From Rubrivirga marina (GTDB lineage Bacteria; Bacteroidota; Rhodothermia; Rhodothermales; Rubricoccaceae), in the NCBI RefSeq assembly GCF_002283365.1, contig NZ_MQWD01000005.1:62001-126000 (forward strand): a stretch of DNA of 64,000 nucleotides, written 5' to 3'. The notes beneath the pieces were generated by a model. The model ran no database searches, was not told the origin of the DNA, and worked only from the letters and a program-made list of their open reading frames with translations. The number at the start of each line of letters is the position of its first letter. Positions within the stretch are counted from its first letter, which is position 1. Both the position numbers and the translations under genes were made by a program. Positions 32,220 through 60,958 of the stretch are shown in pieces.

Positions 32220-32241
32220 ATGAAGGAGTCACCCACACGCC

Positions 32242-33733: not shown

Positions 33734-33753
33734 GGGGCCGGTAATTCTGGGAG

Positions 33754-33787: not shown

Positions 33788-33803
33788 CGGTAGATCGGGA
33801 CGG

Positions 33804-34610: not shown

Positions 34611-34691
34611 GGTGCTTGGGCTGTGGGAGCGGGAGGCCCGACGCCCGACGGCGAGAGCCGGCCGGTCCCGTTGAGGGTTGGACCGCCGGGG

Positions 34692-37409: not shown

Positions 37410-37433
37410 GGCGGAGTGGGCGGAGGGCTGTTG

Positions 37434-37805: not shown

Positions 37806-37895
37806 GGGGGATCGGGTGGCGTGGACCCAGCGACCGGGCCGATGGAGCGCGCGTGTCGGCGCGTGGAGGTCCTCGACCGGCCCGGACGGGGCGGT

Positions 37896-38246: not shown

Positions 38247-38367
38247 GGTGCTGCCCTTGAGGGCGGTGGGCGGAGTCGGTCCGCCGGTGAAGCCGGGCGT
38301 CCCCAGCGTGTGGGTTGGTCGGGCAGGGGCCGCCGTCGGCCCCGTGCCCGAGTGGGCGTCCCCGGTG

Positions 38368-44153: not shown

Positions 44154-44972
44154 CTACGCTGTGGCCTGGACCGGGAGGGCGAGGGAGCCGCGCTGGACGA
44201 GCGCGTCGAGTACCGCTCGGTAGTCCTCGGCGAGTCGGCCGTCCGGGCGGTACTCGACGGCCGTGAGCGCGCGGGCGTACGACCGGCTCGCGGCCGAGCT
44301 TGTGCGGACGGGGGGGAGGACGGCGCCCTCGGGGTACTCCCCGAACGCCTCGTGGAGCACGCCGAGGAACTCCGCCGTCTCCGAGTACCGGGCGTCGACG
44401 GCGCACGGGAGGTAGAGCACGCGGGGGACCTCGCCGAGCGCGCCCTCGACGGCGTCGACCATCCGGCGGAGCCGGACGACCCCGCGCATCGAGAGCGACG
44501 AGAGCGTGACGGGCGCCACGATGAGGTCGGCGCCCGCGACCGCGTTGAGGCTCAGCCGGCCGATGGCCGGGGGGCAGTCGACCACGCAGAGGTCGTAGCG
44601 GTCGGCCTTCCGGACGCCGCTGACGAGCGTCCCGACGGCCCAGAGGTCGCCGGTCTCGGCGATGGACTCCTCGAAGAGCGTGAGCCCCTCCGTCGCCGCC
44701 AGCACGTCGACGCGGCCCGAGCCCGGTCCGAGGGCGCCGGGCTCCCGGCCGGTCCGGACGACGTCGGCCCACCGGGCCTCGCCGGAGAGGACGTCGCTGA
44801 GCCCGGGGCTCGGGGGATCGCTCCCCAGGAACAGCTCGGTGGCCGACCCCTGCGAGTCGAGGTCGACGACGAGGACGGACGCCCCGCGCTCGGCCGCGAC
44901 GGCGGCGATGGTGACGGCGGAGGTCGTCTTTCCGACGCCGCCCTTCTGGTTCGTGAACGCGATCGTCTTCAT
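44154..44972 (-). CDS. parA: ParA-family partition ATPase
   Basis: 272 residues from ATG 44972; an upstream TTG at 44996 lies in the -7 promoter element and is rejected. Deviant Walker A FTNQKGGVGKTTSAVTIAAV at residues 5-24, VLVVDLDSQGSATELFL, Walker B DLCVVDCPPAIGRLSLNAV. ParA proteins form filaments or gradients on the nucleoid that position plasmid or element DNA. With the RHH gene downstream and three palindromes in its promoter this is a self-regulated partition locus. Confidence 0.9.
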   Translation of the reverse strand: MKTIAFTNQKGGVGKTTSAVTIAAVAAERGASVLVVDLDSQGSATELFLGSDPPSPGLSDVLSGEARWADVVRTGREPGALGPGSGRVDVLAATEGLTLFEESIAETGDLWAVGTLVSGVRKADRYDLCVVDCPPAIGRLSLNAVAGADLIVAPVTLSSLSMRGVVRLRRMVDAVEGALGEVPRVLYLPCAVDARYSETAEFLGVLHEAFGEYPEGAVLPPVRTSSAASRSYARALTAVEYRPDGRLAEDYRAVLDALVQRGSLALPVQATA

Positions 44973-45339: not shown

Positions 45340-46371
45340 ATGACCCTCTTCGACCGACCAGAGCCCGACGTTCCCACAGCTCTCGGCGCGCCCCGCCCCG
45401 AACGGCTCGCCCGTCTCGTCGAGTCCGCGCTCGCTTCGTCCCGCTCGACAACGCCCGCTGACCTCTTCGCGCTGGCGGCCGACGCCTTCGGCGGGACGCT
45501 CTCCGAGGGCGCCTTCTCGCCCCGCGACGCCTACGACGCCGCCGAGTTCGGGCTCCACCTCCACCTGCTCCGGCTCAGGCTCCCGCTCGGGGACGACCCC
45601 GCCGCCGCGCTCGCTGAGGTCGAACGACTCTCGGGCCTCCTGCCGAGCCAGACGCGCCGGACGACGGCGCAGAACGACTACCAGCAGTTCTCGACGCCCG
45701 CCGCCTACGCCGCGCTGTGCGCGTGGGTGAGTGGAGTGGGGGAGGGGGACCGTGTGATCGAGCCCTCAGCTGGGACCGGCGCGCTCTGCGCGTTCGCACT
45801 CGCGGCGGGCGCCTCGGTTCATGCCAACGAACTGTGTGGTCGCAGGGCGGACCTCCTGGCATCGCTCCTCGCGGAGGCCGGTCAGGACCCGAGCCGGACC
45901 CTCACGCGCGAGAACGCCGACCACCTCGACGCCATCCTCCCCCCCGGGGTCAGAGCGGACGTGCTCCTGATGAATCCACCCTTCTCCCAGACGGCCGGGC
46001 GGCTCGGCCACCGCCGCGTCCCGACGGTCGGGACGGACCACGTGCTCCAGGCACTCCGGAGGCTCGACGAGGGCGGGCGGCTCGTGGCCGTCTTGAGCGC
46101 GGGCGTGCGGCGGGGGAAGCCGACGCACCGGGCGTTCTTCGGGGCCGTCGACCGAAACCCCTTCCGTCTCCGGGCCGACGTCGAGGTCGGCGAGGCCGTG
46201 TACCGGCCGTACGGGACCTCCGTGCGCACGCGGGTCCTCGTCGTAGACCGAGTCTCAGGCGGCGAGTCGAGCGGCCGGGGAGACCGGATCGAGGTCGCCG
46301 TGGAGACCTTGGCGGACGCGGCGGCGGCCTTGACTCCAGCCCGTCGCGCTGTCACCCTCCGAGTCGACTAG
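45340..46371 (+). CDS. N6-adenine-type DNA methyltransferase of plasmid type
   Basis: 343 residues. QTRRTTAQNDYQQFSTPAAY leads into motif I VIEPSAGTGALCAFALAAGA and ANELCGRRADLL; motif IV is DVLLMNPPFSQTAGR (NPPF). The layout resembles the methylase part of large plasmid methylase-helicase (strawberry-notch-like) proteins, but here it ends alone. No restriction enzyme is nearby, so an orphan enzyme that protects or marks the element is plausible. It is divergent from parA and preceded by a hairpin. Confidence 0.75.
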   Translation: MTLFDRPEPDVPTALGAPRPERLARLVESALASSRSTTPADLFALAADAFGGTLSEGAFSPRDAYDAAEFGLHLHLLRLRLPLGDDPAAALAEVERLSGLLPSQTRRTTAQNDYQQFSTPAAYAALCAWVSGVGEGDRVIEPSAGTGALCAFALAAGASVHANELCGRRADLLASLLAEAGQDPSRTLTRENADHLDAILPPGVRADVLLMNPPFSQTAGRLGHRRVPTVGTDHVLQALRRLDEGGRLVAVLSAGVRRGKPTHRAFFGAVDRNPFRLRADVEVGEAVYRPYGTSVRTRVLVVDRVSGGESSGRGDRIEVAVETLADAAAALTPARRAVTLRVD

Positions 46372-46374: not shown

Positions 46375-47367
46375 GTGCCTGCCTTGCCCATCACGCGCCT
46401 CCCCCGGGTCCCAGCCCTCGCCCTCGCTCTCATCGGGCTCGCCGCGTGCGGGGAGTCGGGTCGTTCTCCAACCGCCAGCGGGCCGGACGCCGACCCGCCC
46501 GAGGCGGCTACGACCGGCGACGGGCTGCCCGCCGCGCTCCTCGGCACCTACGACGCCGACGCCGACGCCTGCGCGCAGGGGATGACCTCCGGCCGACTGA
46601 CCGTCCGGACGGACACGCTCGACTTCTTCTACGGCTTCGCGGTCGTCGATGAGGTCTCGGCGCACGACGGGGGCTACCAGGTCGAGACGACGCTGTACCA
46701 GACGGAGGGGGCCGTCGAGGTCGTCCCGGAGCCGACCTCGTACCGGATCGAGCGGACGGCCGACGGGCTCCGCATCGAGTCGGCCTACGCGGGCGCGTCG
46801 GCGCTCGTCCGCTGTGCCGACGCGCAGACGGGTGTCGCCAGCGGGACGGCCGCGTCTCGTGCCGACGTCCAAGCGCGTACACCCAGACCGAGAACTGCGA
46901 GACGCTCCGCGAGGCGGAGGTCGAGGCCGGGACGACGGAGCAGCGGTGCCCCGGCTACGGCGGCGTCGCGCTCTTCGTCTCCGAAGGCGACCTCCGCACC
47001 GACGTCGACGCGGGCGTCCCGAACGGCTCGTGGGACACGCCCGCTGGGTTCAAGTCGGTCGGAAGACGGTCGAGTGGCGTCTCCGCGACGGGCGGCCATT
47101 CCCCGCCATCGTCCGGTACGAGGTCGAGGGGACGGGCGGGACGGCGGCCGAGCGCCGGTCGGACCTCGCCGTCGTCACGGTGGGGCGCGAGGGGGCACCG
47201 GGCTGCCTCGTGGGCTACGTGCCCGCCGACGCCCAGCCGGACCAGAACGCGGCGGCCCGTCGGCTCGCCGACCGCGACGCCGAGGGGTTACGATTGCGAC
47301 GCCGACAGGGGCTGGCGACGCGTCCTGGAACCTCGTGCCGTGCGCGAGGGCGTACCCGGGCCGCTAG
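46375..47367 (+). pseudogene. Frameshifted lipoprotein/exported-protein gene
   Basis: GTG start 4 bases after the methylase. The first 160 codons are sound: signal peptide with lipobox GLAAC and the stretch GLPAALLGTYDADADACAQG. Then coding sense moves between frames: AYTQTENCETLREAEVEAGT from 46875 in a second frame; a missing base near 47063 moves it to a third (TVEWRLRDGRPFPAIVRYEV); an extra T near 47288 returns it (YDCDAD); the original frame resumes with DASWNLVPCARAYPGR before the stop. This could be two genes fused and decayed, or assembly indels. The function is unknown. Confidence 0.6.
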
Positions 47368-48362
47368 GGGTGGTCTACGGCGTTCCACTCCCGCCCCGCG
47401 TCCCGCACCAGCCCGAGCAGGCACCGCCGCCTGGCCCCCTCCGCCTCGGCCGCTTGGCGGAACGCCTCGTCCTCCACGGTCGGCACGCCCGCCGCCGCCA
47501 GCGGCGCGAGCGACGGGGCCTCGGGCGCGCCGTCCGCCTCGTCCACGAACGACGCGCTCAGCGTGTCGAGGTAGTCGCCCAGCACGCGCCGGAGCGGCTC
47601 GACCTCGGCGGGCGCCATCCGGGCCGCGGGCGTCACGCCCTCCGCCAGCAGCAGGAGCGCCTCGTCGAGCACGGCCAGCATCACCGGCGCCGACGTCCGC
47701 CGCTCGCGGCTCCCGAAAAAGTGGAGGGCCGGGTACGCCTCGTGTCGCCGCCCGTGCGCCTCCACCATCGGCGTGAGGTTCGCGAGGTGCTGGCCCAGCC
47801 CGTCGAAGCCGGACCCCGTCCACGCCCGCGCGACGACCTCGTGCGGCGTCGCGCCCAGCCCGTCCACGACGCCCGCGAGCTGGCGCGCGCCCGTGACGGC
47901 CCCGACCACCTGGAGCACGTAGGTCACGACGAGCGTGACGACGGCGAAGCCGTTGAGCGCGACGGCGCTCGCGATGACGCCCCAGCCGCCGGAACCGGGC
48001 GCCCAGAGCGCCCCGAGCCCGAGCGTCCAGAGGTACGTCCCGACGGCGTAGGCGCGCGAGAGCGCGTCGGCGGGCGCGTTCGTCTTCGGGTCCACGACAG
48101 AGGCGGGGTCGGCCGAGAACACGAGCCACCACCCGAGCCACAGCGCGCCCGTCCACCACAGGAACGCGGCGACGAGCGTGGCCGGACCCGTCCACCCCGG
48201 CGCGCGTCCGCCTCCGAGCGCCTTCGCCAGCGCGTAGACGCCGCGCCCGACCCGGCCCGCGACCGGCCCGGCCCCGCGCGGGGCCACCGTCGTCCAGAGC
48301 GCGTCGACGAGCGCGAACGCGACGAGCGCCCCGCCTCCGACGGCGACCAGAGCCCCGGTCAC
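47364..48362 (-). CDS. Ion-channel-like membrane protein
   Basis: 332 residues, GTG start overlapping the methyltransferase stop (GTGA). Hydrophobic segments at 4-20, about 58-80 and 115-140 flank a re-entrant-like stretch AVGTYLWTLGLGALWAPGSG that occupies the place of a K+ channel selectivity filter but lacks TVGYG. The C-terminal 180 residues are soluble and Ala/Glu rich. It resembles two-TM channel-family proteins; ion and gating are unknown. It is the last gene of the rhodopsin-led operon, and its stop shares the CTAG at 47364-47367 with the convergent pseudogene. Confidence 0.5.
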   Translation of the reverse strand: MTGALVAVGGGALVAFALVDALWTTVAPRGAGPVAGRVGRGVYALAKALGGGRAPGWTGPATLVAAFLWWTGALWLGWWLVFSADPASVVDPKTNAPADALSRAYAVGTYLWTLGLGALWAPGSGGWGVIASAVALNGFAVVTLVVTYVLQVVGAVTGARQLAGVVDGLGATPHEVVARAWTGSGFDGLGQHLANLTPMVEAHGRRHEAYPALHFFGSRERRTSAPVMLAVLDEALLLLAEGVTPAARMAPAEVEPLRRVLGDYLDTLSASFVDEADGAPEAPSLAPLAAAGVPTVEDEAFRQAAEAEGARRRCLLGLVRDAGREWNAVDHP

Positions 48363-49234
48363 GAGAGGTGCCCGACGAGCATCCCGTAGCGCATGGCGCC
48401 GTCGGCGTAGGCCCGCTGCATGGCCGGGAACGCCCCGACGAACCGCCGGGCACGCCCGTCGCTCACCGCGAGAATCGCGCGGACCTCGGGACGCCGAGCG
48501 ATCGCGGCGCAGAGGTCCCACGTCCGGGCCACGCGCGGCGTGAGGTCCCACGTCCGGAGGTCTCCGAATCCGGCCGCCCGCATCCACCCCTCGTACTCTG
48601 CCGCCGTCGCGAGCGAGGGGCACAGCATCCCCTCGCACACCGACGCCACGAGCGCCTCGCCCTCGGCGTCGAGGCCGCCCCCGCTAGCGGCTCCCTCGGC
48701 GGTCCCGTCGGCGACCCCGCCGTCGCCCCGGAGCCAGGCGCAGAGCGCGAGGGCCCCACCGGGGCGGAGCCGCCGCGCGGCGGCCTCGACGAAGGTGGCC
48801 TTGTCCTCGAGGTGCTCGGTGCACTCGACCGTCCATACGACGTCGTAGTCGGTGCCCAGCGCGTCGAGGTCACGGGCGTCGTGGACCTGGAACCGGACCC
48901 GGTCGCCGACCCCCTCCGCCTGGGCTCCCGACGTCGCCATGTCCACCTGGACGGGGCTCAGCGTGATCCCGTCGACGCGGCACTCCAGGTGGGCGGCGAG
49001 CCACCGGGCCGACCCGCCCACGCCGCACCCCACGTCGAGCACGCGGGCGCCCTCCGGCACGCCAGCCCGCTCCGCCAGCAGGGCCACGAGCCGCTCCTGG
49101 GCCGTCCGGGCCGGTACGTCCTCGCCCTCCTCCCAGTACCCGTGGTGGATGTGGTCGCCCCAGAAGGTCCGGTAGAAGACGGAGATCCGGTCGTAGTGGT
49201 CGCGGACGGCGTCGGCGGGGTCGGGAGGGGGCAT
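48359..49234 (-). CDS. SAM-dependent methyltransferase (tocopherol/cyclopropane-type small-molecule group)
   Basis: 291 residues. DHYDRISVFYRTFWGDHIHH with GYW is the amino-terminal hallmark of gamma-tocopherol-like methyltransferases. Motif I is VLDVGCGVGGSARWLAAHL, followed by GITLSPVQVDMA and VVWTVECTEHLEDK. The substrate is not evident; a lipid, quinone or carotenoid-type molecule is likely from the family. It overlaps the channel-like gene and lies 25 bases after the GMC gene. Confidence 0.75.
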   Translation of the reverse strand: MPPPDPADAVRDHYDRISVFYRTFWGDHIHHGYWEEGEDVPARTAQERLVALLAERAGVPEGARVLDVGCGVGGSARWLAAHLECRVDGITLSPVQVDMATSGAQAEGVGDRVRFQVHDARDLDALGTDYDVVWTVECTEHLEDKATFVEAAARRLRPGGALALCAWLRGDGGVADGTAEGAASGGGLDAEGEALVASVCEGMLCPSLATAAEYEGWMRAAGFGDLRTWDLTPRVARTWDLCAAIARRPEVRAILAVSDGRARRFVGAFPAMQRAYADGAMRYGMLVGHLS

Positions 49235-49259
49235 GGGCGGTGGGGCCGGTCGGCCGTGG

Positions 49260-51017
49260 TTAGTGGAGCGGCCCCGGCGAGGGCACGTAGCGGTTCACGA
49301 TGGCGTCGGCCGCCCGGTAGGCCAGCGCGCCGACCGTCCCCGTCGGGTTGTAGCCCGCGTTCTGGGGGAAGACGCCCGCGCCCATCACGAACACGTTGTC
49401 GACGCCCCACACCTGCAGGTCCGGGTTGACCACGCTCGTCTCGGGGTCGGTCCCCATGACGGTGCCGCCCGTGTTGTGCGTCGTCTGGTAGGGCACGATG
49501 CTGTAGTGGTCCGAGAGCCGGCTCACCTTGACGTGCGTTGGGTCCATGGCGCGGGCGATCTCGGCCGCCCGGTCGGTGAGGTACTCCGTCATCCGGCGCT
49601 CATTCCCGCCCCAGTCGAACGTCATCCGCAAGAGCGGCTGCCCATAGGCGTCGCGGTACGTCGGGTCGAGGTCGAGATAATTGCCGCGGTAGCTCATCAC
49701 CGCCCCCTGGCTCACGATCGTCGCCGCCCGGTTGAAGTACTTCGCGACGGCCCGCTTCCACTCCGGCCCCCACGACGGCGTCCCGTCCGGGATCGGGTGC
49801 GTGTTGATCGGCCGGTGGCCGGTGATGTAGAGGCCCAGCGAGGCGCCGTCGACGAACCCCAGGCCGGTGTGGTCGAAGTTGTCGCCGTTGAAGTCGTCCA
49901 CGACCGTCCCCATCGCGCCCGCGCCGGCGAACGTGTTGAGGTCCTTGTCGTCGAAAAAGACCGTCGCGCTCGTGACCGCCTGGTAGGCGTAGTTCCGGCC
50001 GACGGTGCCCCGGCCGGTCGCCGGGTCGTAGGTCTCGCCGATCCCCGAGAGCATCATCAGCCGCGCGTTGTGGAGCCCGTACGCCGTCAGGAGCACCATC
50101 TCGGCCGGCTGCTCGACCTCGCGGCCCTGAGCGTCCACGTAGAGCACGCCCGTCGCGCGCGTCCCGTCCGGGCTCATGAGCACGCGCGTCACGTGGGCGC
50201 CCGTCCTCAGCTCGAAGTTGCCCGTCTTCAGGGCCGCTGGGATGACGGTCGCCTGCGGGCTCGCCTTGGCGTAGATCTCGCACCCGAACCGCTCGCAGTA
50301 CCCGCAGTAGTGGCACGCGCCGAGCTGCATCCCGTCGGGGTTCGTGTACTCCGTCGTCGAGTTGGCCGACGGCCCGGGGAACGGGTGCAGTCCCATCCCT
50401 TCGGCCGCCTCCTTGTACAGGTGCTGCGCGTAGCTCGTCTTCATCGGCGGGTTCGGGTACGGCCCGCGCGGCCCCTCGAAGGGGTTGCCGCCCGGCTGGA
50501 CCGCGCCGCCCAGGTTGCCCGCCACGCCGCCGACGCCGCACGTCCGCTCGAACCGGTCGTAGAACGGCGCGAGCTCGTCGTAGGTCACGCCCCAGTCCTG
50601 GATCGTGTTGTCCCGGGGCAGGATGCCCTCGCCGTAGCGCGCGACGGCCCGGCTCCGCGCCTCGAACGTGTACGGCAGGAACCGCCACGTCTGCCCGTTC
50701 CAGTGCACGCCCGCGCCGCCCAGCCCCTCGCCGAGCAGGAACGAGCCCAGCGTCCGCATCGGGAGCGCCCGCTGGCTCCGGTTGTTCCGGAACGTCAGCG
50801 TCTCGCGCGAGAGGTCCTGCATGAGCTCGTAGCGGACCGCGTACCGCAGCTCGTCGTGGACGTGGGGCGGCTGGAAGTCGGGCTTCGTCGCGCGGTAGCC
50901 GCCGCGCTCCAGGCCGACGACCGTGAGGCCCGCCTCGGCGAGCTGGTGGGCCAGGATGCCGCCCGTCCAGCCGACGCCGACAGTGACGGCGTCGACGGGG
51001 GGGAGTCGGTGGGCCAT
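49260..51017 (-). CDS. GMC-family oxidoreductase, gluconate 2-dehydrogenase large-subunit type
   Basis: 585 residues. FAD-binding start VTVGVGWTGGILAHQLAEAG; LGACHYCGYCERFGCEIYAK is a Cys cluster typical of membrane-bound sugar dehydrogenase subunits; the C-terminal active-site region is QTTHNTGGTVMGTDPETSVV and GAGVFPQNAGYNPTGTVGAL. It has no signal peptide and is probably exported in complex with the Tat-tagged subunit at 51057. It oxidises a sugar or alcohol in the periplasm and passes electrons to the respiratory chain. A cytochrome c subunit is not visible. Confidence 0.85.
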   Translation of the reverse strand: MAHRLPPVDAVTVGVGWTGGILAHQLAEAGLTVVGLERGGYRATKPDFQPPHVHDELRYAVRYELMQDLSRETLTFRNNRSQRALPMRTLGSFLLGEGLGGAGVHWNGQTWRFLPYTFEARSRAVARYGEGILPRDNTIQDWGVTYDELAPFYDRFERTCGVGGVAGNLGGAVQPGGNPFEGPRGPYPNPPMKTSYAQHLYKEAAEGMGLHPFPGPSANSTTEYTNPDGMQLGACHYCGYCERFGCEIYAKASPQATVIPAALKTGNFELRTGAHVTRVLMSPDGTRATGVLYVDAQGREVEQPAEMVLLTAYGLHNARLMMLSGIGETYDPATGRGTVGRNYAYQAVTSATVFFDDKDLNTFAGAGAMGTVVDDFNGDNFDHTGLGFVDGASLGLYITGHRPINTHPIPDGTPSWGPEWKRAVAKYFNRAATIVSQGAVMSYRGNYLDLDPTYRDAYGQPLLRMTFDWGGNERRMTEYLTDRAAEIARAMDPTHVKVSRLSDHYSIVPYQTTHNTGGTVMGTDPETSVVNPDLQVWGVDNVFVMGAGVFPQNAGYNPTGTVGALAYRAADAIVNRYVPSPGPLH

Positions 51018-51056
51018 GAGAGGGGAGGTCTGAAGTGTGAAAGAGGGGGGCGACGG

Positions 51057-51926
51057 TCAGTGGCCGCCGTCGTGGGAGTGGCCGTCGTCCGAGCCGCCGT
51101 GGCCATCGCCATCGTCCCCGTGACCGTCGCCGCGGGGCTGGGGCGTGACCGTCGCCATCCCCTTCGGCCCGCCGCCGTGGTCGTGCCCGTGGCCCATGCT
51201 CACCTCGCCCTGCTGCACCTGGGCCAGGCTCGTCGGGCCGGGCGCGTGGTCGACGCCGTAGTCCTCGATGATGCCCTCGTACTCGCCCACGACACCGGGG
51301 AAGCCGATCATTTTCCAAGCCGCCATGTCGGCGTTGCCGCCGTAGGCCGGGTCGGCGAAGTAGCCCTCGATGGTGTTCGCGTGGAGCAGCTCCCAGAACC
51401 GCGCCAGCACGGCGTCGGGCACGCCGGCGAGGTGGACGTCCCCGGCTTCGAGGTCGCGGAGGAACTCGTCCTGGAGCACGGGGCCGATCTCGGCGAACGG
51501 GAGGCCGGTCCGCCGGACCCAGTAGTCGTCGATCTCGCGCATCGAGAGGCGGTACACCTCGCGCGGCGTCAGCCGGAGCTGGTAGCCCTGCTCGGGCGTG
51601 CCGTCGGCCCACGGCCCCTGGCCGTAGTTCTTGGCGAACGCCCCGTAGGCCCCGTCGAGCTGGCCGTCGATGAAGTAGGCCACGCCGGCCTCCTTCGCGC
51701 CCGGCCCGAGCTCGTCGGCCGGGATGAGCCGCGCGACCGCGGCCTCGACGAAGGCGGCCTCGGGCTCGGTCAGGAACACGTAGGCCTGGTCCTCGCCGAG
51801 CGCGCCGCCCCGCGCACGGCGCTTGGGCCGGGGCGCGGCCTCGGCGGGCACGACCGCCACGGCGGCCCCGGCGCCGAGCACGCCCATGGACTTGAGGAAC
51901 GAACGGCGAGAGTCGGGTCTAGGCAT
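51057..51926 (-). CDS. Gluconate 2-dehydrogenase subunit 3-like protein with Tat signal and His-rich tail
   Basis: 289 residues. Twin-Arg-type signal SRRSFLKSMGVLGAGAAVAV; the DUF/subunit-3 core has FLTEPEAAFVEAAVARLIPA, YFIDGQLDGAYG and TPREVYRLSMREIDDY. The last 45 residues are His/Asp/Gly rich (GHGHDHGGG, DGHGDDGDGHGG, DDGHSHDGGH), unlike the usual family, and look like a metal-binding tail. It would carry the large subunit through the Tat system. Confidence 0.8.
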   Translation of the reverse strand: MPRPDSRRSFLKSMGVLGAGAAVAVVPAEAAPRPKRRARGGALGEDQAYVFLTEPEAAFVEAAVARLIPADELGPGAKEAGVAYFIDGQLDGAYGAFAKNYGQGPWADGTPEQGYQLRLTPREVYRLSMREIDDYWVRRTGLPFAEIGPVLQDEFLRDLEAGDVHLAGVPDAVLARFWELLHANTIEGYFADPAYGGNADMAAWKMIGFPGVVGEYEGIIEDYGVDHAPGPTSLAQVQQGEVSMGHGHDHGGGPKGMATVTPQPRGDGHGDDGDGHGGSDDGHSHDGGH

Positions 51927-52251
51927 CGGAGGCGGAGGAAAGAGGGGAGGGGGACTCGGTGACCTCGACCGTCGCCAGCGCGCCGTCGTCGGGCTCGCGG
52001 CGGACGCGGAGCCACACGCCCGCCTCGCGGTCCGAGCGGCGGAGCGCGTCGAGCACGGGGGCCGTGGCCTTGGGGTCCAAGAGCGTCACCCGGCCGTCAG
52101 CGTCGACGAGCGCGTAGCCGCTCTCGAGGCAGTGGCCCATCTGAGAGCACGCCGTCGTGTGCGCGCGGGCGCGCTCGGCGTACTCGTCGCGCGGGTACTT
52201 CCGGAGGCAGGCGATGTCGAGGACCCAGCCCTCGGCGGTTTCGGGATGCAT
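51919..52251 (-). CDS. Small conserved-looking protein of unknown function
   Basis: 110 residues, overlapping the next gene's start by 8 bases and 4 bases after the 52256 gene. It starts MHPETAEGWVLDIACLRKYP and has AHTTACSQMGHCLESGYALV with Cys-x5-Cys and a His, then a beta-rich C-terminal half (GRVTLLDPKAT, VWLRVRREPDDGALATVEVT). There is no signal peptide. I do not recognise the family. Its place in the rhodopsin-GMC operon is the only clue. Confidence 0.6.
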   Translation of the reverse strand: MHPETAEGWVLDIACLRKYPRDEYAERARAHTTACSQMGHCLESGYALVDADGRVTLLDPKATAPVLDALRRSDREAGVWLRVRREPDDGALATVEVTESPSPLSSASDA

Positions 52252-52255
52252 GGGA

Positions 52256-53047
52256 CTAGAGGTTCGGGGCGAGGGGGATGACGACGCCGCCGATGACGGA
52301 CCACGGGCTCGCGTCGTCGAGGTAGAGCCGGCCGCCGCGGCGGACCTCGTCGCCCGCGTCCGGGAGACCCGTCAGGTAGTCCAGCAGGACGTACACGCCG
52401 ACGTCGCGGAGGAAGGAGGCCCCCGGCCGCCCCTCCGGCAGGCCCGCGAGCGGGTAGCCCGTCGCGGCGAGCTCGAGGTTGAACCGCTGGACGTAGGTGC
52501 CGTCGTCGTCGGGCCGGGCGGCCGGGCCGAACTGGTCGACCACGCCGAGGCCCACGGCGGCCCAGCCGCCGAGCTGTGCCCGCTCCACGAGCGCGAGGTC
52601 GAGGGAGACCTCGACCAGCGGGGCGTTCGCAGCCACGGCGCCCTCGCCGAGCGACTCCGCGCTGTACCCCGTGAACGGGTTCGAGTCGGTGTCGGCGAAC
52701 GGCGTCCAGAGAACCTGGAGCCCGAGCGACGTCCGGGGCAGCCGCGTCGGCACGGCGACGGTGGCGACCAGGAGCACCTGGGCGTCGGGGTCCAGCTCGC
52801 GGACCTCGCCCGTCGCGAGGTCGCGCACGCGAGGCCCGCCGAAGGCGTTGCCCGCCGCCACGCTCGGCTCGAACGTGACCGAGGGCGTGCAGAGCAGCCC
52901 GCCGCACCCGTCGTCTTGGGCGGCGGATTGGGGGGAGAGCGCCAGGGCGGCGAGCAGCAGGGCCGCCACGGACCCCCGCCAGCGGGCGGCAAGAGGGGGG
53001 GCGAGCGCGGCGCTCGCGCGAGGGGCAGCGTGTAGACGGGCACACAT
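52256..53047 (-). CDS. Exported, probably outer-membrane beta-barrel protein
   Basis: 263 residues. Signal peptide core AALLLAALALSPQSAAQ; mature start DDGCGGLLCTPSVTFEP with a Cys pair. Alternating beta-like strands follow (VLLVATVAVPTRLPRTSLGL, LVEVSLDLALVERAQLGGWA, FNLELAATGYPLAGL) and it closes WSVIGGVVIPLAPNL, compatible with a small barrel. The function is not recognised. It starts 11 bases after the rhodopsin stop, so the two are co-transcribed; an outer-membrane pore serving the operon is a guess. Confidence 0.6.
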   Translation of the reverse strand: MCARLHAAPRASAALAPPLAARWRGSVAALLLAALALSPQSAAQDDGCGGLLCTPSVTFEPSVAAGNAFGGPRVRDLATGEVRELDPDAQVLLVATVAVPTRLPRTSLGLQVLWTPFADTDSNPFTGYSAESLGEGAVAANAPLVEVSLDLALVERAQLGGWAAVGLGVVDQFGPAARPDDDGTYVQRFNLELAATGYPLAGLPEGRPGASFLRDVGVYVLLDYLTGLPDAGDEVRRGGRLYLDDASPWSVIGGVVIPLAPNL

Positions 53048-53058
53048 CGGGGCGGACG

Positions 53059-53796
53059 TCAGGCGAGGGGGCGGCGCGGGACCGTCGTCCGCTCCGGGAC
53101 GGCCTCGTCGCCCAAGAACTCACGGTTCCGCATCACGGTCGAGAGCGTGCTCAGCGCCAGGAACCCGAACCCGACCTTCGCGACGACGTCGAGGACCGTG
53201 AACAGCCCGGCCTCCCAGGCGTCGCCGACCACGTCGAGCCCCTCGGGGCTGAGGATCCAGACGAGCGGGTACATCGTCCACAGGAACACGTGGACGCCCA
53301 CCAGCCGCCGGAACGCGCCCGCCGACTGGGGGTGGGCCGCGACGGCGCTCCGCCGGTACGGCCCGAGGAGCATGTAGGCGATGGCGAGGTAGGCCCCGCA
53401 CGAGACGAGGTACCACGTGATGGCCGTCGCGTCCTCGGGGAGCACGGTCGCGATGAACCCGGTCCCGATCATGAAGGCGTTGGCCCCGATGAGCTGGGCC
53501 GCCAGCACGTTCCGGCTCGACGCGACGAGCGTGAGGTCGAGGAGCAGCAGCGGCGTCGTCAGGAACCACGTCGCGTAGCGGACCCACGTCGTCCGCGTCC
53601 CGTCGGCCGAGACGTAGGCGCCGTACCCCATCGCCATCGTGAGGTAGAGGGCGAAGGCGACCAGGCAGATGAAGAAGTTCAGCGTGTAGAGGATCTCGCG
53701 GGGCCGGTGATCGGCCTTCGCCGCGCCGACCCCGAAGAGCACGGAGCCGAGCGCCATCGCCGCCGTGCCGATCCAGTACCAAGTCGTCGCAGTCAT
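53059..53796 (-). CDS. Microbial rhodopsin with T-T-D helix C motif (probable anion pump or sensor)
   Basis: 245 residues, seven TM segments. Helix C reads WVRYATWFLTTPLLLLDL. By alignment to bacteriorhodopsin R73 is R82, T76 is D85, T80 is T89, and D87 is D96. The primary proton acceptor is therefore Thr, as in halorhodopsins and the TSD cyanobacterial chloride pumps, while the D96-type donor is kept. Helix F has FLWTMYPLVWILSPEG. Helix G has LDVVAKVGFGF, with K207 as the retinal Schiff-base Lys and D203 as D212. L84 at the tuning position suggests green absorption. It is the first gene of a seven-gene operon with a copper-type box upstream. No retinal-synthesis gene is in the window. Confidence 0.93.
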   Translation of the reverse strand: MTATTWYWIGTAAMALGSVLFGVGAAKADHRPREILYTLNFFICLVAFALYLTMAMGYGAYVSADGTRTTWVRYATWFLTTPLLLLDLTLVASSRNVLAAQLIGANAFMIGTGFIATVLPEDATAITWYLVSCGAYLAIAYMLLGPYRRSAVAAHPQSAGAFRRLVGVHVFLWTMYPLVWILSPEGLDVVGDAWEAGLFTVLDVVAKVGFGFLALSTLSTVMRNREFLGDEAVPERTTVPRRPLA

Positions 53797-53857
53797 GGGG
53801 GAGTGGAGAGGGGAGGCCCATAGCTACTGAGCCCATTCCTGTCGCGTCTCGTCCTCA

Positions 53858-53876
53858 ACCTGAAAATGCGCTCAGG
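53858..53876 (-). promoter_or_regulatory. Shared 19-bp box, copy 1 (rhodopsin operon)
   Basis: Minus-strand CCTGAGCGCATTTTCAGGT, 61 bases before the rhodopsin ATG. It lies in a longer dyad TCAACCTGA/TCAGGTTGA (53855-53863 / 53872-53880). TAGCTATG, a near match to TAnnTTTG, begins about 30 bases downstream. Matches copies 2 and 3 at 14 of 19 invariant positions. Confidence 0.7.
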
Positions 53877-53913
53877 TTGACTTGGATCATGGTTTTCCCG
53901 AGCGCGGGTCCTG

Positions 53914-54123: not shown

Positions 54124-55548
54124 TCAGTCCGACCCGTGCAGGCAGGGGAGGAGGACCCAGAACGTCGCGCCAAGGCCGGGGCCCGGGCTCGCGCACCCGA
54201 CCTCCCCGCTGTACCCCTCGACGATGGCCTTGACGATGGCGAGGCCGAGCCCGCTCCCCGGCTCGGCCTGGACCTCCGGCGTGTCGGCCCGGAAGAACCG
54301 GTCGAACAGCCGCTCGCACGTCGCCTCGTCGAACCCGGCGCCCGTGTCCTCGACCTCCAGCCGCGCCGACCCGTCGACGTGCCCCAGCCGGACCGAGACC
54401 CGCCCGCCCGGGGGCGTGTACTTCACCGCGTTCCCCACCAGGTTGTCGACGACCTCGGCGAGCGGCCCGGCCTCGGCCGCGAGCCGGACGTCGGGTTCGG
54501 CCGACACGTCGAGCGCGAGCCCGCGCGCGGCGGCCTCGGGCCGGAGCCGCCCGGCACGCTGGCGGACGAGCGCGCCGAGGTCGAGCCGGGCGTCGGGCGT
54601 CTTCTCGAGCGACTCGGCCCGGGCGAGGTGGAGGAGGCCCTGGACCGTCCCCGTCATCTCGGCCACGTCCTCGACGACCCGGCCCAGCGTCTCGCGGTAG
54701 GCCTCGGGCTCGCGCTCTCGGCGGAGCGCGACCTCGGCCTCGCTCCGGAGCGTCGCGAGCGGCGTCAGGAGCTCGTGGGCCGCGTTCGCGGTGAACCGCC
54801 GTTCCCTCGCGACCGACGCTTCGAGGCGGGCGAGGAGCCCGTTGAACGTCTCGGCCAGGTCCGTCAGCTCGTCGCGCGTCTCGAAGTCTGACGGGAGCCG
54901 CCCGCCGAGTCGGCCGCCGTCGGCCGCGAGCCGCCCGGCCGCGTCAGTCAGCACGGCGACCGGGCGGAGCGCCCGACGCGCGAGCCACCACCCGGCCCCC
55001 AGCGCGAACAACACGCCGAGCGCCACGCCGAGCGCCAGCGTCCGGCCGAGGTCGCGGAGCTCGCGGTGCCGGCTCCACTCGACGCCCGAGACCTCGACGT
55101 AGCCCGCGAGCGCGCCGGACGGCGCCCGGAGCGGCTCGACGAGCGACCGGAGCGGCTCGCCCGCCCACTCCCGGCTCGCCCGGAGCGCGTCGCCGCCCTC
55201 GGGGAGCGCGACGCCGAGTGGGGGCCGCCCGCGCACGTTCTGGGAGGCGAAGGCCACGTCGCCGTCGGGCGTCAGCACGCGGACGAACGTCGCGTTCGGC
55301 CCGTCTAGCCGCGTCGCGACGGCCGCCGTCGAGGCGAGCGCGCCCGCGTCGACGCCGCCCTCGCCGACGGCCAGGAGGGGGACGACGGCCTCGAGTTCGT
55401 GGTCGAGGTGCCGGTCGAACGAGCGGTGCGCGGCGGCGTGGAACCCGACGTAGCAGAACACGGCGAACGCGCTGAGCAGCAGGAGCAGCGTGAGCGCGTA
55501 CCACAGCGCGAGCCGGGCCGAGATCGGGAGGGGGGGGAGCGGGCTCAT
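54124..55548 (-). CDS. CusS-type sensor histidine kinase
   Basis: 474 residues from ATG 55548. TM1 LWYALTLLLLLSAFAVFCYV, a periplasmic domain of about 130 residues, TM2 ALGVALGVLFALGAGWWLAR, HAMP, H-box FTANAAHELLTPLATLRSEA, N-box VDNLVGNAVKYTPPGGRVSV, and G boxes DTGAGFDEATCERLFDRFFR and GSGLGLAIVKAIVE. Closest in layout to heavy-metal sensor kinases (CusS/PcoS). The periplasmic domain has almost no His/Met, so the stimulus is not proven to be copper. It follows the response regulator by 23 bases. Confidence 0.85.
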   Translation of the reverse strand: MSPLPPLPISARLALWYALTLLLLLSAFAVFCYVGFHAAAHRSFDRHLDHELEAVVPLLAVGEGGVDAGALASTAAVATRLDGPNATFVRVLTPDGDVAFASQNVRGRPPLGVALPEGGDALRASREWAGEPLRSLVEPLRAPSGALAGYVEVSGVEWSRHRELRDLGRTLALGVALGVLFALGAGWWLARRALRPVAVLTDAAGRLAADGGRLGGRLPSDFETRDELTDLAETFNGLLARLEASVARERRFTANAAHELLTPLATLRSEAEVALRREREPEAYRETLGRVVEDVAEMTGTVQGLLHLARAESLEKTPDARLDLGALVRQRAGRLRPEAAARGLALDVSAEPDVRLAAEAGPLAEVVDNLVGNAVKYTPPGGRVSVRLGHVDGSARLEVEDTGAGFDEATCERLFDRFFRADTPEVQAEPGSGLGLAIVKAIVEGYSGEVGCASPGPGLGATFWVLLPCLHGSD

Positions 55549-55571: not shown

Positions 55572-56297
55572 TCACTCCGCGCCCGGGGCGCCGTCGGCGG
55601 GGGCGAGCCGGTAGCCCACGCCCCGGATCGTCTCGATCGACGGAGCGCCCGAGGCCCCCGACTCCCTCTCGGCGTCGGCGAGCCGCTGGCGGAGCCCGCT
55701 GACCGTCACGTCGAGCGCGTTGTCGGTCACGAAGAGCGGGTCGCCCCAGACCCGCTCCGCGAGGACCGTCCGCGAGAGGGCCGCGTCGGCGCTCCGCATG
55801 AGGACCTCGAGCATGGCGTGCTCCTTGGGGCGGAGGTTGAGGACGGCCTCGCGGAGCGGCCCGGCCATCGTCACCCTCCGTCGCTCGCCGTCGAGCACGA
55901 GGGGGCCGACGGCGACGGTCCGTTTCTGGTCCGAGAGCGGGGGCCGCCGGAGGAGCGCACGGAGCCGGGCCACGAGCTCCTCGAAGGCGAACGGCTTGGG
56001 GAGGTAGTCGTCGGCGCCGGCGTCGAGCCCGGCCACGCGGTGCTCCACGTCCGAGAGCGCCGTCAGCATCAGGACCGGCTGGTCCTTGCCCGCGGCCCGG
56101 ACCCGCTCGACGATCGTCTTGCCGTCGCCTCGGGGGAGCCGCCAGTCGACGACGAACGCGTCGTAGGCGTTCTCCAGGGCGAGCCGCTCGCCGACCTCGG
56201 CGTCGCCGGCCACGTCGACGCGGTACCCCTCCTCCTCGAGCCCGCGGCGGACGGAGTCGGCGAGGCGCGCCTCGTCTTCGATGAGGAGGACCCACAT
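55572..56297 (-). CDS. OmpR/CusR-type response regulator
   Basis: 241 residues from ATG 56297 (MWVLLIEDEARLADSVRRG); an upstream ATG at 56363 overlaps the shared box and is less likely. Receiver: acidic IEDE, phospho-acceptor FVVDWRLPRGDG, TALSD, and Lys in DDYLPKPFAFEELVARLR. DNA-binding winged helix: LRPKEHAMLEVLMRSADAAL, DNALDVTVSGLRQRLADAER and IRGVGYRLA. Divergent from the DUF2231 unit with one shared box between. Probably the factor that binds the 19-bp boxes. Confidence 0.9.
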   Translation of the reverse strand: MWVLLIEDEARLADSVRRGLEEEGYRVDVAGDAEVGERLALENAYDAFVVDWRLPRGDGKTIVERVRAAGKDQPVLMLTALSDVEHRVAGLDAGADDYLPKPFAFEELVARLRALLRRPPLSDQKRTVAVGPLVLDGERRRVTMAGPLREAVLNLRPKEHAMLEVLMRSADAALSRTVLAERVWGDPLFVTDNALDVTVSGLRQRLADAERESGASGAPSIETIRGVGYRLAPADGAPGAE

Positions 56298-56362
56298 GGG
56301 GGCGTCGGGGGAGGGGAACGGGTCAGGCACGGGATACTCACGGATCGCGGTGGGGGCGGGCA

Positions 56363-56381
56363 CCTTAACGCCTTTTCAGGT
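56363..56381 (+). promoter_or_regulatory. Shared 19-bp box, copy 2 (two-component/DUF2231 divergent region)
   Basis: CCTTAACGCCTTTTCAGGT, 60 bases before ATG 56442. It sits between the divergent response regulator and the DUF2231 unit, the usual place for autoregulation. CGCCCCGTTTCATG about 25-38 bases downstream parallels CGCCCCGTTAGAG in copy 3. Confidence 0.7.
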
Positions 56382-56441: not shown

Positions 56442-56561
56442 ATGGCCATCGCCGTCGCGCTCTACTTCGCCGCCCTCGTCGCCGCCATCGCCGCCGTCGG
56501 GCGTGCGCTCGCGCCGCCCGCCGTCCGGGTCCTCGACGCCACCCTCCGCCTCCCCCGCTGA
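56442..56561 (+). CDS. 39-residue single-TM small protein
   Basis: ATG at the same distance from the shared box as the copper oxidase start, which supports this start. Product: AIAVALYFAALVAAIAAVGR as one TM segment, then LAPPAVRVLDATLRLPR. Its stop overlaps the next ATG (TGATG). Possibly a small membrane partner of the DUF2231 protein. It resembles no family I know. Confidence 0.55.
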   Translation: MAIAVALYFAALVAAIAAVGRALAPPAVRVLDATLRLPR

Positions 56562-57595
56562 TGCTTCCCGACTGGCTCCCCAACGTCCACCCGCTCGTCG
56601 TCCACTTCCCCATCGCGCTCCTCGTCGTGGCTGCGCTTGTGGACGCGGTCGCCCTCGTCGTCCGGCGGACGTACCCGTGGGTCCGGGCCTCGGCCGTCGG
56701 GCTCTACGCGCTCGGCGCGCTCGGGGCCGCGGCCGGGTTCCTCACTGGCCGCGACGCCTCGGACGAGGTCGACCTCCCGGCCCAGGCGCTCACCACGCTC
56801 AACGCCCACGCCGACTGGGCCCTCTACCTCGTGTGGTTCGCCGGGCTCTACGCCGCCGTCCGCGTCGCGGCCCTGTGGCTCGACGGGCGGGGCCGGGAGC
56901 CGGGTCGGCTCGCCGTCCACGCCCCGCTGGCGGCGCTCGGGCTCGTCGGGCTGTTCCTCGTCCAGCAGACGGCCGAGCGCGGCGGGCAGATGGTGTACCA
57001 GTACGGCGTGGCCGTGGCGGCCGCCCAAGCCGACGCTCCCGGCGGGGGCGGGATGGGCGACCACTCGGGCATGGTCATGGACGACTCGGTAGCGGACAGC
57101 CCGGGCGCCGACGCCCCAGCGGGCCTCCCCGCCCTCGACGTCCTCTCCGGCGCCCCGCCCGACGGGGCCACGCTCACGGCCGCGCCGGGCCGCCCGGCGT
57201 TCGTGGCGACCGGCGGCCCCGTCGGGGACGTGGTGGCCGAGGCCACGCTCGACCTCTCCGGGTTCACGGGCACGGCCATGCTCGTCCACCACGTCCGCGA
57301 CGCCCGGAACTACGACTTCCTCGCGCTCGACAAGCCCGCCTCCGGCGAGGTCATGCTCCGCCAGGGGCGCGTCGAAGACGGCCGCGAGACGACCATGGAC
57401 GAGGGGGCGGCCCCGCTCGACGGCCCGGCCGAGCTCAAGGCGTACGCCGTGGGCACCCACTTCCGGGGCTACCTCGGCGGCGAGCAGCTCACGCACCCCC
57501 ACGGCCCGGCCGCCCCGCCCGGCCGCGTCGGGCTCCGTCTCGACGGCGCGGGCACGGCCCGCGTCCTCGCGCTCTCGGCGACCCCCGTCGAGTAG
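56561..57595 (+). CDS. DUF2231 membrane protein with periplasmic lectin-like domain
   Basis: 344 residues from the ATG at 56561. N-terminal four-TM DUF2231 domain: LPNVHPLVVHFPIALLVVAA with the family's HP-x-x-VHFP signature, then TLNAHADWALYLVWFAGLYA and HAPLAALGLVGLFLVQQTAE. A Met/Asp/His linker (GMGDHSGMVMDDS) follows, then from about 195 a beta-rich domain like DUF1080/LamG folds (VVAEATLDLSGFTGTAMLVH, ARNYDFLALDKPASGEVML, RVGLRLDGAGTARVLALSA). DUF2231 proteins are often near copper genes; the reaction is unknown. Confidence 0.75.
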   Translation: MLPDWLPNVHPLVVHFPIALLVVAALVDAVALVVRRTYPWVRASAVGLYALGALGAAAGFLTGRDASDEVDLPAQALTTLNAHADWALYLVWFAGLYAAVRVAALWLDGRGREPGRLAVHAPLAALGLVGLFLVQQTAERGGQMVYQYGVAVAAAQADAPGGGGMGDHSGMVMDDSVADSPGADAPAGLPALDVLSGAPPDGATLTAAPGRPAFVATGGPVGDVVAEATLDLSGFTGTAMLVHHVRDARNYDFLALDKPASGEVMLRQGRVEDGRETTMDEGAAPLDGPAELKAYAVGTHFRGYLGGEQLTHPHGPAAPPGRVGLRLDGAGTARVLALSATPVE

Positions 57596-57642
57596 CGCCC
57601 CCCTACACCCCTACACCCCGCGGCGCCCCGCCGCCCACGTCC

Positions 57643-58029
57643 ATGCGCGTCTCCCTGCTCCTCGCTCTCCCCCTCGCCCTCGCCGCGTGTGCCTCCGAGG
57701 ACCCCCCCGCCGTCCCCGACGCGCCCCCGGGGGCCGCCGTTGAGGACGAGCTCTCCGTCGACGACGATCTCTCCGCCGAGGACGGCGCCTTGGAGGACGG
57801 CTCCCTCGACCCCGGCGACCCGCTCGGGGTCCCCCAGGTTGAGCCGGCCCGGCCCGCCCCAGCCCCGCCGGTGCCGCCGAGCGAGCGCCCGGAGGCCGCC
57901 GAGGACCACCCCGAGGGCGAGCACACGATGGAGGACGGCATGATGATGGACGGGGACCACACAATGGACGGCGAGGCCCCCATGGACCACGGCCAGATGG
58001 ACCATGACCAGATGGACCACGACCAGTGA
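57643..58029 (+). CDS. Met/His/Asp-rich lipoprotein (copper-binding candidate)
   Basis: 128 residues. Signal peptide with lipobox ALAAC; acidic Pro-rich middle; C-terminal Met/His/Asp clusters EGEHTMEDGMMMDGDHTMDG and MDHGQMDHDQMDHDQ. MDHxQ repeats are typical of periplasmic copper-binding proteins (PcoE/CopB-type). It lies between the DUF2231 gene and the shared box of the copper oxidase operon. Confidence 0.65.
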   Translation: MRVSLLLALPLALAACASEDPPAVPDAPPGAAVEDELSVDDDLSAEDGALEDGSLDPGDPLGVPQVEPARPAPAPPVPPSERPEAAEDHPEGEHTMEDGMMMDGDHTMDGEAPMDHGQMDHDQMDHDQ

Positions 58030-58071
58030 CGGGGGGGGCGCGGCGTCGCTTCGCGCCCTCTTCGCGTGCGG

Positions 58072-58090
58072 CCTTAGCGTCTTTTAAGGT
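58072..58090 (+). promoter_or_regulatory. Shared 19-bp box, copy 3 (copper oxidase operon)
   Basis: CCTTAGCGTCTTTTAAGGT, 60 bases before ATG 58151. CCTTA/TAAGG arms make it a dyad. CGCCCCGTTAGAG follows about 25 bases downstream. Confidence 0.7.
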
Positions 58091-58150
58091 GTGGGGCCGC
58101 ACTTCCGCACGCACGCCCCGTTAGAGACCCACGACCCACGCCCCATCCTA

Positions 58151-60073: not shown

Positions 60074-60079
60074 CCGACC

Positions 60080-60105
60080 CGGGCGGCCCCACCTCCGGCC
60101 GCCCG
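60080..60105 (+). promoter_or_regulatory. First of two hairpins between copA and copB
   Basis: CGGGCGGCC (60080-60088) pairs with GGCCGCCCG (60097-60105), an 8-base loop, starting 7 bases after the copA stop. No T-run. Likely protects or partly terminates the copA mRNA. Confidence 0.5.
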
Positions 60106-60107
60106 AC

Positions 60108-60147
60108 GCCGCCCCCCGACCCTCCGAGCGACGGGGAGGGGGGCGGC
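60108..60147 (+). promoter_or_regulatory. Second hairpin between copA and copB
   Basis: GCCGCCCCCC (60108-60117) pairs with GGGGGGCGGC (60138-60147) across 20 bases, directly after the first hairpin. Together they fill the 102-base gap and end 28 bases before the copB ATG. Confidence 0.5.
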
Positions 60148-60175
60148 CCCTTCTGCTCCCGATCGACCCTCTCCG

Positions 60176-60955
60176 ATGCTCCGAACCGTCCCCCTCGTTC
60201 TCGTCGCCGTCCTACTGACGCTCGCCGCCGGCGCCCCGGCCTCGGCCCAGGACGCCCCGCCGTTCCCGGAGTACCCCGACTTCCGGCCCGGCGCCGTCGC
60301 CGCGGCCGACCAGAACCTCTACTCCCTCGCGCTCCTCGACCTCTTCGAGGCCGCCCCGGCCGCCTCCGGCGTGCCCGCCCGCGTCGAGGGCCTGTACCGG
60401 ATCGGGACGGACTACACCCGGCTCTACATCAAGGGCGAGGGCGAGGGGCTCATCGCCGACGCCGAGGGGGAGGTCGAGGGCCAGGCGCTCTACAGCCGCC
60501 TCATCACGTCGTACTTCGAGGCCCAGGCGGGCCTCCGGCTCGACACCGAGTTCGGCGACGGCGACGTCCGCGCCCGGCCCCACCTCGTCGTCGGGCTCGA
60601 GGGGCTCGCGCCCTACTTCTTCGAGGTCGAGCCCGCCGTGTTCCTCTCGGCCGCGGGCGATCTCTCGGCCCGGTTCGTCGGGTCCTACGACCTCCTGCTC
60701 ACACAGCGGCTCGTGGCCCAGCCCCGGCTGGAGGTGAACGCGGCGCTCCAGGAGGTGGCCGACTGGGGCGTCGGGTCGGGCCTCAACGACACCGAGGTCG
60801 GCCTCCGTCTCCGCTACGAGGTCCGCCGCGAGGTGGCCCCGTACGTCGGCGTGAACTGGACCCAGCGCTACGGGGCCGCCGCCGACTTCGCCCGCGCCGA
60901 GGGCGGCTCGGCCTCCGAGGCCAACGTCGTCTTCGGCATCCGCCTCTGGCGCTAG
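60176..60955 (+). CDS. copB: CopB-type outer-membrane copper resistance protein
   Basis: 259 residues. Signal VAVLLTLAAGAPASAQ; then the CopB barrel: VEGLYRIGTDYTRLYIKGEG, LRLDTEFGDGDVRARPHLVV, FEVEPAVFLSAAGDLSARF, LLTQRLVAQPRLEVNAALQE and closing VVFGIRLWR with aromatic/Arg end. It lacks the long Met-rich N-terminal stretch of proteobacterial CopB; those repeats are instead on separate proteins here (57643, 61597). Sequesters or passes copper at the outer membrane. Confidence 0.85.
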   Translation: MLRTVPLVLVAVLLTLAAGAPASAQDAPPFPEYPDFRPGAVAAADQNLYSLALLDLFEAAPAASGVPARVEGLYRIGTDYTRLYIKGEGEGLIADAEGEVEGQALYSRLITSYFEAQAGLRLDTEFGDGDVRARPHLVVGLEGLAPYFFEVEPAVFLSAAGDLSARFVGSYDLLLTQRLVAQPRLEVNAALQEVADWGVGSGLNDTEVGLRLRYEVRREVAPYVGVNWTQRYGAAADFARAEGGSASEANVVFGIRLWR

Positions 60956-60958
60956 CCC

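Follow-up and report, generated by a model that had tools for sequence, protein, structure and literature searches.

Closest described systems

Little is known of what chloride-pumping rhodopsins do for bacteria in nature. We have analyzed such a gene, HR2, in a stretch of 64,000 nucleotides from Rubrivirga marina (the window), which covers bases 62001-126000 of contig C5 (NZ_MQWD01000005.1; 170,049 bases) of a genome of 4.98 Mb, called G000 below. HR2 is the first of seven genes on the minus strand and is preceded by a palindrome which looks like the operator of a copper regulon. An earlier annotation made from the sequence alone (the original prediction) missed what is the strongest signal at the locus, the plasmid-borne copper regulon and its shared operator.

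The bacterial halorhodopsins RmHR, R28HR1, R28HR2, SyHR and MastR (PMC5877348, PMC7979833) belong to the same family as HR2, which has the TTD motif of R28HR2. The setting of HR2 differs from theirs by a probable plasmid, a copper operator and an operon. The available sections of PMC5877348 report low similarity around the rhodopsin genes and name no plasmid or copper context. Copper regulons of the CusRS, PcoRS and CopRS type (PMC11195947, PMC7380067) are carried by plasmids or islands and, as here, comprise an OmpR-type regulator and a kinase, with a palindrome that adjoins the regulator gene and precedes copper genes; the copper regulators of OmpR type in E. coli and Pseudomonas bind palindromes next to their own genes (PMC11195947). 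In contrast to these, the palindrome found here has another sequence (ACCTGA-N8-TCAGGT), many sites are found per plasmid, and a rhodopsin is among the targets. The fructose/gluconate-2-dehydrogenase GMC complexes have, like this locus, a GMC subunit and a Tat-exported small subunit side by side, whereas the cytochrome c subunit of the three-subunit enzymes is absent among the seven genes as judged by Pfam.

Literature searches combining copper and rhodopsin found no published link; PMC4524478 treats rhodopsin synteny and cites a copper-stress reference, with no link between them in the parts available. New is the setting, in which a halorhodopsin on a probable plasmid follows an apparent copper operator.

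The halorhodopsin and the putative copper operator

The features which carry the argument are listed here in window coordinates. The comparison set was 114 genomes of the order, and one of them, G049, includes a contig named Rubrivirga sp. SW42617_bin_3. Genes outside the block of seven were modelled with our own position-specific base-composition script, so that their start codons and the distances measured from them are approximate; the script moved several of the seven gene starts downstream, and for these genes the starts of the open reading frames (ORFs) were retained.

53059..53796, minus strand: HR2, a bacterial halorhodopsin with the TTD motif and with its retinal Lys in LDVVAKVGFG (PF01036, E 2.8e-49)
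53855..53880: operator TCAACCTGA-N8-TCAGGTTGA, with a core of 20 nucleotides (nt) at 53858-53877, which precedes the start codon of HR2 by 61 nt
54124..55548, minus strand: sensor histidine kinase, CusS/CopS-like (HAMP, HisKA, HATPase)
55572..56297, minus strand: OmpR/PhoB-type response regulator, the candidate regulator (PF00072 and PF00486); start uncertain, the ORF opens at 56363
56362..56381 (C5:118362): exact copy of the operator, flanked by the response regulator and DUF2231 genes
56561..62646, plus strand: copper block with DUF2231, multicopper oxidase (58151-60073), CopB (60176-60955) and others, by family search
58071..58090: 1-mismatch copy of the operator, 60 nt in front of the multicopper oxidase

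The best PDB matches of HR2 are the cyanobacterial chloride pumps MastR (E 2.6e-73) and SyHR. In the alignment to MastR the segment YATWFLTTPLLLLD gives T-T-D with Thr at position 85 of bacteriorhodopsin, and the Schiff-base Lys segment LDVVAKVGFG aligns with LDIASKVGFG. The genome has three rhodopsin genes, the other two on contig C1, and HR2 is 62% identical to the rhodopsin of a Rubricoccus-like genome (G046) and 59% identical to the second halorhodopsin of G000. For R28HR2, PMC5877348 gives identities of 62% and 57% to the corresponding halorhodopsins and, in its Table 1, the TTD motif which HR2 shares. Because the number of rhodopsins, the motif and these identities fit, HR2 is probably R28HR2 of Rubrivirga marina SAORIC-28. 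PMC7979833 lists the TTD protein of R. marina at 577 nm and describes for a red-shifted R. marina halorhodopsin a Cl−-dependent light-driven transport, stronger with carbonyl cyanide m-chlorophenylhydrazone (CCCP). The E. coli medium turned alkaline, more with CCCP, as expected if protons are drawn in by inward pumping of Cl−. HR2 is likely to be a light-driven Cl− pump; the light-driven ion gradient of the original prediction was right in kind, with Cl− as the likely ion. A single Blh-type retinal-synthesis gene is found in G000, on C1. Among 72,556 plasmid records eight hold relatives of HR2 at E up to 1e-5, and Blh adjoins the rhodopsin in four of these.

The promoter of HR2 has the core palindrome ACCTGA-N8-TCAGGT. 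The longer form, TCAACCTGA-N8-TCAGGTTGA, has no second copy in the window even with 3 mismatches allowed and was found 0 times in 100 shuffles. With the relaxed core ACCTKA-N8-TMAGGT there are nine exact sites in G000, seven on C5 and two in a second copper island on C1; at up to 1 mismatch the genome has 16 sites and the reversed pattern 2. No gene model contains any of the seven exact C5 sites (two extend over the final 6 bases of the model before them), C5 being 86% coding by our own models. Controls on C5 gave 0 for the reversed pattern (up to 1 mismatch), 0 for each of the spacings 4-7 and 9-12, a mean of 0.01 for the 179 other permutations of the half-site and 0 in 60 order-2 Markov simulations. 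The exact sites border HR2, the response regulator and DUF2231 gene, a P-type ATPase, a DUF326 gene, a DUF305 gene and an acyltransferase, and a further one lies at a second P-type ATPase with HMA domains in a promoter shared with Cus-type genes (CusB by Pfam, CusA and CusC by eye). At least 37 exact sites, at least 24 of them distinct, from seven genomes give the consensus ACCTGAGCGCCTTTTAAGGT. One site in G047 (C191:8606) lies inside our own gene model, which is seemingly over-extended, and an ATPase-like start follows the site.

Between the core and the start codon of HR2 there are 61 nt in G000, G049 and G033, and the channel gene of G050, which there stands first behind the operator, has the same distance of 61 nt. 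The distance is 58 nt for the ATPase, 59 nt for the acyltransferase and 60 nt for the multicopper oxidase with its 1-mismatch site. Because HR2 and the channel gene share the spacing of 61 nt, HR2 seems to have been captured behind a pre-existing copper operator, where it took the place of the channel gene. The scan of rhodopsin surroundings covered 34 loci (at 32 different places, a few of them truncated at contig ends, and representing part of the 45 rhodopsin match rows), and an exact site was found at the three HR2 orthologs and nowhere else.

The palindrome was also considered as an intrinsic terminator and rejected as such: the scan found 0 terminators, and a T-run after the arms is absent by eye. 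Upstream of the rhodopsin operator, at 53908-53967, there is a 12-bp tandem repeat (GTCCCCGGCGGC); the array of G049 is shorter and by eye imperfect.

The OmpR-type regulator and the HAMP/HisKA kinase stand among copper genes. Kinase copies of at least 79% identity are present in G049, G050, G033, G048, G047 (in two pieces) and on contig C1 of G000, and G034 has copies of 60-63%. Seven of the nine genomes scanned for the operator have exact sites together with a kinase of at least 60% identity (at least 79% in six of the seven). In the genomes without exact sites the kinase was absent at E 1e-60 (G046) or 45% identical (G032). The exact site adjoins the response-regulator gene in six of eight copies (C5 and C1 of G000, G033, G047, G048 and G050); the two copies of G034 have a site with 1 mismatch (C22) or 2 mismatches (C8), and the regulator promoter of G049 lies off its contig. 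C5 has another two-component pair (57057-59187, kinase 51% identical), which was rejected as a candidate, with no site at up to 2 mismatches in C5:59001-59600. The order of the genes, the plasmid-type genes, the operator copies with their spacing and a sequence of the Cl−-pump type can be read directly from the DNA. We infer from these sequence comparisons that HR2 is regulated by copper through the shared operator; which regulator binds, copper as the signal and the plasmid state have the same standing.

A probable conjugative plasmid

The plasmid-type genes are, in window coordinates unless C5 is given:

24551..39369, minus strand: type IV secretion genes TraG/VirD4, VirB8, TrbL, TrbI, CagX, VirB4 and VirB11 (seven families)
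44154..44972, minus strand: ParA-type partition ATPase, by family search
C5:47340-48773: RPA-type replication initiator (PF10134)

C5 has genes for initiating replication, for partition and for type IV secretion, is also rich in copper resistance genes and is probably a conjugative plasmid. Contig C11 of G050, taken whole, has an initiator of 92% identity and no match to the type IV secretion proteins. On C7 of G048, taken in part, VirB4 is 82% and VirB11 74% identical, and VirB11 on C44 of G033 is 70% identical. The second copper-type island (G000:C1:1864025-1882322) has a kinase 79% identical to that of the plasmid, a paralog of the channel gene and the two exact operator sites mentioned above; no rhodopsin match was found in it.

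The seven-gene block and its relatives

Behind HR2 follow six genes, and a flanking gene stands on their left:

52256..53047, minus strand: exported ORFan with a signal-peptide-like N-terminus by eye (Pfam: none)
51919..52251, minus strand: small Cys-containing protein (Pfam: none)
51057..51926, minus strand: Tat-exported small subunit (subunit 3) of a GMC dehydrogenase (PF13618, E 6.8e-30, and TAT signal)
49260..51017, minus strand: GMC flavoprotein (PF05199/PF00732)
48359..49234, minus strand: class I SAM (S-adenosylmethionine) methyltransferase by Pfam, closest in the PDB to 3bus (a methyltransferase) and MitM
47364..48362, minus strand: pore-domain membrane protein (channel-like), GTG start, filter TLGLGA, Kir-type pore fold
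45340..46371, plus strand: left-flank gene, methyltransferase-like by eye (Pfam: none), syntenic in G050, G033 and G048

The seven ORFs run from 53796 down to 47364 with gaps of 11, 4, −8, 39, 25 and −4 bases, and the ORFs, their place, strand and gaps are exactly as originally described. That they form a single operon was also claimed. One transcription unit is plausible from the spacing and from G049, where the first five of the seven, from the rhodopsin through GMC, keep their order on a contig that stops shortly past GMC; the channel gene of G049 starts at the extreme end of a different contig. A consensus scan of 47000-54200 found 0 sigma-70-like promoters and 0 terminators, which is weak evidence since the promoter model may not fit this phylum.

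The flanks on both sides of the block are collinear in relatives, and what lies between them varies. In G048 the kinase gene is followed by the left-flank gene with nothing of the block between. G050 has kinase, operator, channel gene and left flank, without rhodopsin or dehydrogenase block. In G033 the order is kinase, a plus-strand ORF of 591 aa, operator, HR2 (86%), channel gene (80%) and left flank; the HR2 stop and the channel start are one base apart, and the five intervening genes are absent. G000 has kinase, operator, HR2, five genes, channel gene and left flank, the five-gene block starting directly past the HR2 stop, and a single contig of G049 repeats the G000 order between the kinase and GMC. 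A rhodopsin of at least 86% identity is found in 3 of the 114 genomes (G000, G049 and G033), and any rhodopsin match in 32.

A conserved rhodopsin-dehydrogenase unit was rejected because G033 lacks the five-gene block, and the absence of the dehydrogenase at the G033 locus suggests that HR2 can do without it. The dehydrogenase seems to be an optional extra of the operon; the difference of five genes may be a gain in G000 and G049 or a loss in G033. Judged by synteny, which the original prediction had named as a possible refutation, the dehydrogenase thus fails in G033, G050 and G048, and the rhodopsin-channel pair holds in G033. Pairs of GMC and subunit-3 genes occur on Roseivivax and Halorussus plasmids without a rhodopsin in the stretch shown, and in Roseivivax a cytochrome c adjoins the pair.

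Two observations concern G033. The 591-aa ORF lies between kinase and rhodopsin operator (L053:8608-10383), and the kinase frame (L053:10729-12153) has an in-frame TAG, the operators and the rhodopsin frame being intact there. Synonymous divergence between G000 and G049 rises along the operon (window 49260-53796 against L054) from 0.01-0.02 in the rhodopsin and the ORFan to 0.33 in GMC, which suggests recombination inside the operon.

Proposed function and its alternatives

We favour, with moderate confidence, the hypothesis that the operon is cargo on a probable conjugative plasmid and codes for a copper-inducible light-driven Cl− pump which raises the membrane potential under copper stress. 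The halorhodopsin gene, in some relatives followed by a periplasmic FAD-dehydrogenase cassette, sits between the copper-type operator and the other target of that operator, the pore-domain protein. Copper or a similar metal would activate the neighbouring CusRS/CopRS-like sensor-regulator pair, and the phosphorylated OmpR-type regulator would bind the palindrome, which precedes HR2 by 61 nt, and switch on HR2 and the genes behind it. The copper-type P-type ATPases, the Cus-type efflux system, the multicopper oxidase and CopB would be induced at the same time. In the light HR2 would import Cl−, make the inside more negative and so add to the proton-motive force for H+-driven efflux; efflux of the CusCBA type is proton-driven. 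The boost would be independent of the Fe-S-dependent respiratory chain, which copper damages, and since the pump has no Fe-S clusters it should keep working when copper harms respiration. The dehydrogenase could supply electrons from periplasmic oxidation. We regard the role in membrane potential as speculative, and likewise any contribution of the dehydrogenase to it. The wider claim that the rhodopsin is a metal-resistance gene, a copper-induced Cl− pump which helps to power copper efflux and was spread by conjugative plasmids among Rhodothermia, is a tentative one that we would place below even chances.

The apparent connection of HR2 to a promoter for metal stress, on what is probably a mobile plasmid, offers a concrete condition for experiments, copper plus light. 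It suggests that a rhodopsin was captured behind an operator already in place, at exactly the same spacing, and it links phototrophy genes to metal-resistance cargo.

Several observations weigh against the favoured hypothesis. The ends of C5 have no exact terminal overlap of 15-300 bases. Further genomes have kinase relatives of 38-58% identity (at E up to 1e-60 there are matches in 33 of the 114), and the site scan covered nine. Other sites lie about 30 to 260 nt from the nearest start, so the distance of 58-61 nt is not a general rule. HR2 orthologs with the site are known in three genomes, in one of which, G033, the kinase frame holds the stop already mentioned. In PMC5877348 a light-induced pH change was not seen with R28HR2 in E. 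coli, contrary to PMC7979833. The strain came from a depth of 3000 m. No copper-annotated genes were found beside the seven of eight plasmid rhodopsins with annotation (6-8 kb, incomplete gene tables, one stretch cut by the record end).

The rhodopsin might be a passenger which by chance inserted behind a copper promoter, is expressed with copper without a role in copper tolerance and serves ordinary capture of light energy. The varying cargo at the locus among G048, G050, G033 and G000 fits with this, as do the other two G000 rhodopsins (on C1; L001 and L003), which have no site. Nevertheless HR2 is kept in three genomes with a ratio of nonsynonymous to synonymous changes (dN/dS) of 0.09 to G049 (5 changes) and 0.28 to G033, operator and 61-nt spacing are preserved across the three, and the DNA similarity between G000 and G033 spans HR2 and the operator and ends there, at window position 53883. 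We regard a mere passenger as rather unlikely.

The palindrome could also belong to a MerR-family copper sensor such as CueR, which would leave the regulon claim standing and change the regulator. A 20-bp inverted repeat that starts with ACC and ends with GGT is similar to the operators of CueR, and MerR-like genes are present by eye at C5:7830-8237 and window 20318-20731, so that a regulator of MerR type could own the operator, a further point against the favoured hypothesis. Yet neither MerR-like gene has an adjoining site, the site beside the response-regulator gene is exact in six of eight copies and imperfect in the other two, and the presence of the kinase tracks that of the site in the nine scanned genomes. 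We hold a MerR-type owner to be improbable.

The original prediction of a dedicated seven-gene envelope system, coupling light-driven ion flow to periplasmic oxidation, has in its favour the tight spacing throughout, the five genes collinear in G049 and dN/dS values to G049 of 0.15 (GMC), 0.21 (small protein) and 0.22 (subunit 3), and is very improbable with HR2 directly abutting the channel gene in G033, GMC and subunit-3 pairs without a rhodopsin on other plasmids and no cytochrome c family matched among the seven proteins by Pfam.

The other proteins of the block

The labels originally given to the rhodopsin, the Tat-tagged subunit, the GMC flavoprotein and the methyltransferase are supported by Pfam. 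The exported ORFan had been called barrel-like, for which no support was obtained: there is no family match, and an AlphaFold model from two sequences has a pLDDT of 28. Among the 114 genomes it has matches at E up to 0.001 in G000 and G049 alone, and its dN/dS between these is 0.68 (8 changes).

Homologs of the small protein are found in G034, about 5 kb from a copper-type kinase, and in G049 behind a fragment read by eye as a pyrroloquinoline quinone (PQQ)-type dehydrogenase. The frame at G000:C5:133775-134218, which has no Pfam match, resembles a deletion fusion of a PQQ-type dehydrogenase fragment (by eye) and a truncated homolog of the small protein; on C618 of G049 the two stand apart.

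Subunit 3 has matches of at least 95% identity in 2 of the 114 genomes and any match in 13. The closest solved relative of the GMC flavoprotein is the large subunit of fructose dehydrogenase (PDB 8xcm, E 1.9e-30). The methyltransferase family is present in 113 of the genomes with a best match outside G000 of 42%, the corresponding stretch of G049 lying beyond the contig end.

For the channel-like protein the fold part of the original label stood and a K+ filter did not. Its model (pLDDT 88) aligns by VIA-align to a KirBac chimera with a Z of 9.0, modest by itself, at 2.5 A over 96 residues; rows 1-5 are all Kir-type channels, and the C-terminal half past about residue 153 is barely covered by this comparison. 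A Foldseek search with the same model found nothing at E of 0.001 or below. The protein has profile matches to K+ channels, and nine of 13 aligned family members match Ion_trans_2 (PF07885), the window protein being among those which do not. Its degenerate filter, TLGLGA, departs from the K+ selectivity filter TxGYGD or TxGxGD. The channel gene has a dN/dS of 0.38 to G049 and 0.26 to G033; it is found at 79% identity or more in 4 of the 114 genomes and with any match in 10. TLGLGA is shared with its three closest relatives, and the other nine members have TLGxGD or TMGNGD; the loss of the filter aspartate is thus conserved in four channel orthologs, including that of G050, which has no rhodopsin at the locus.

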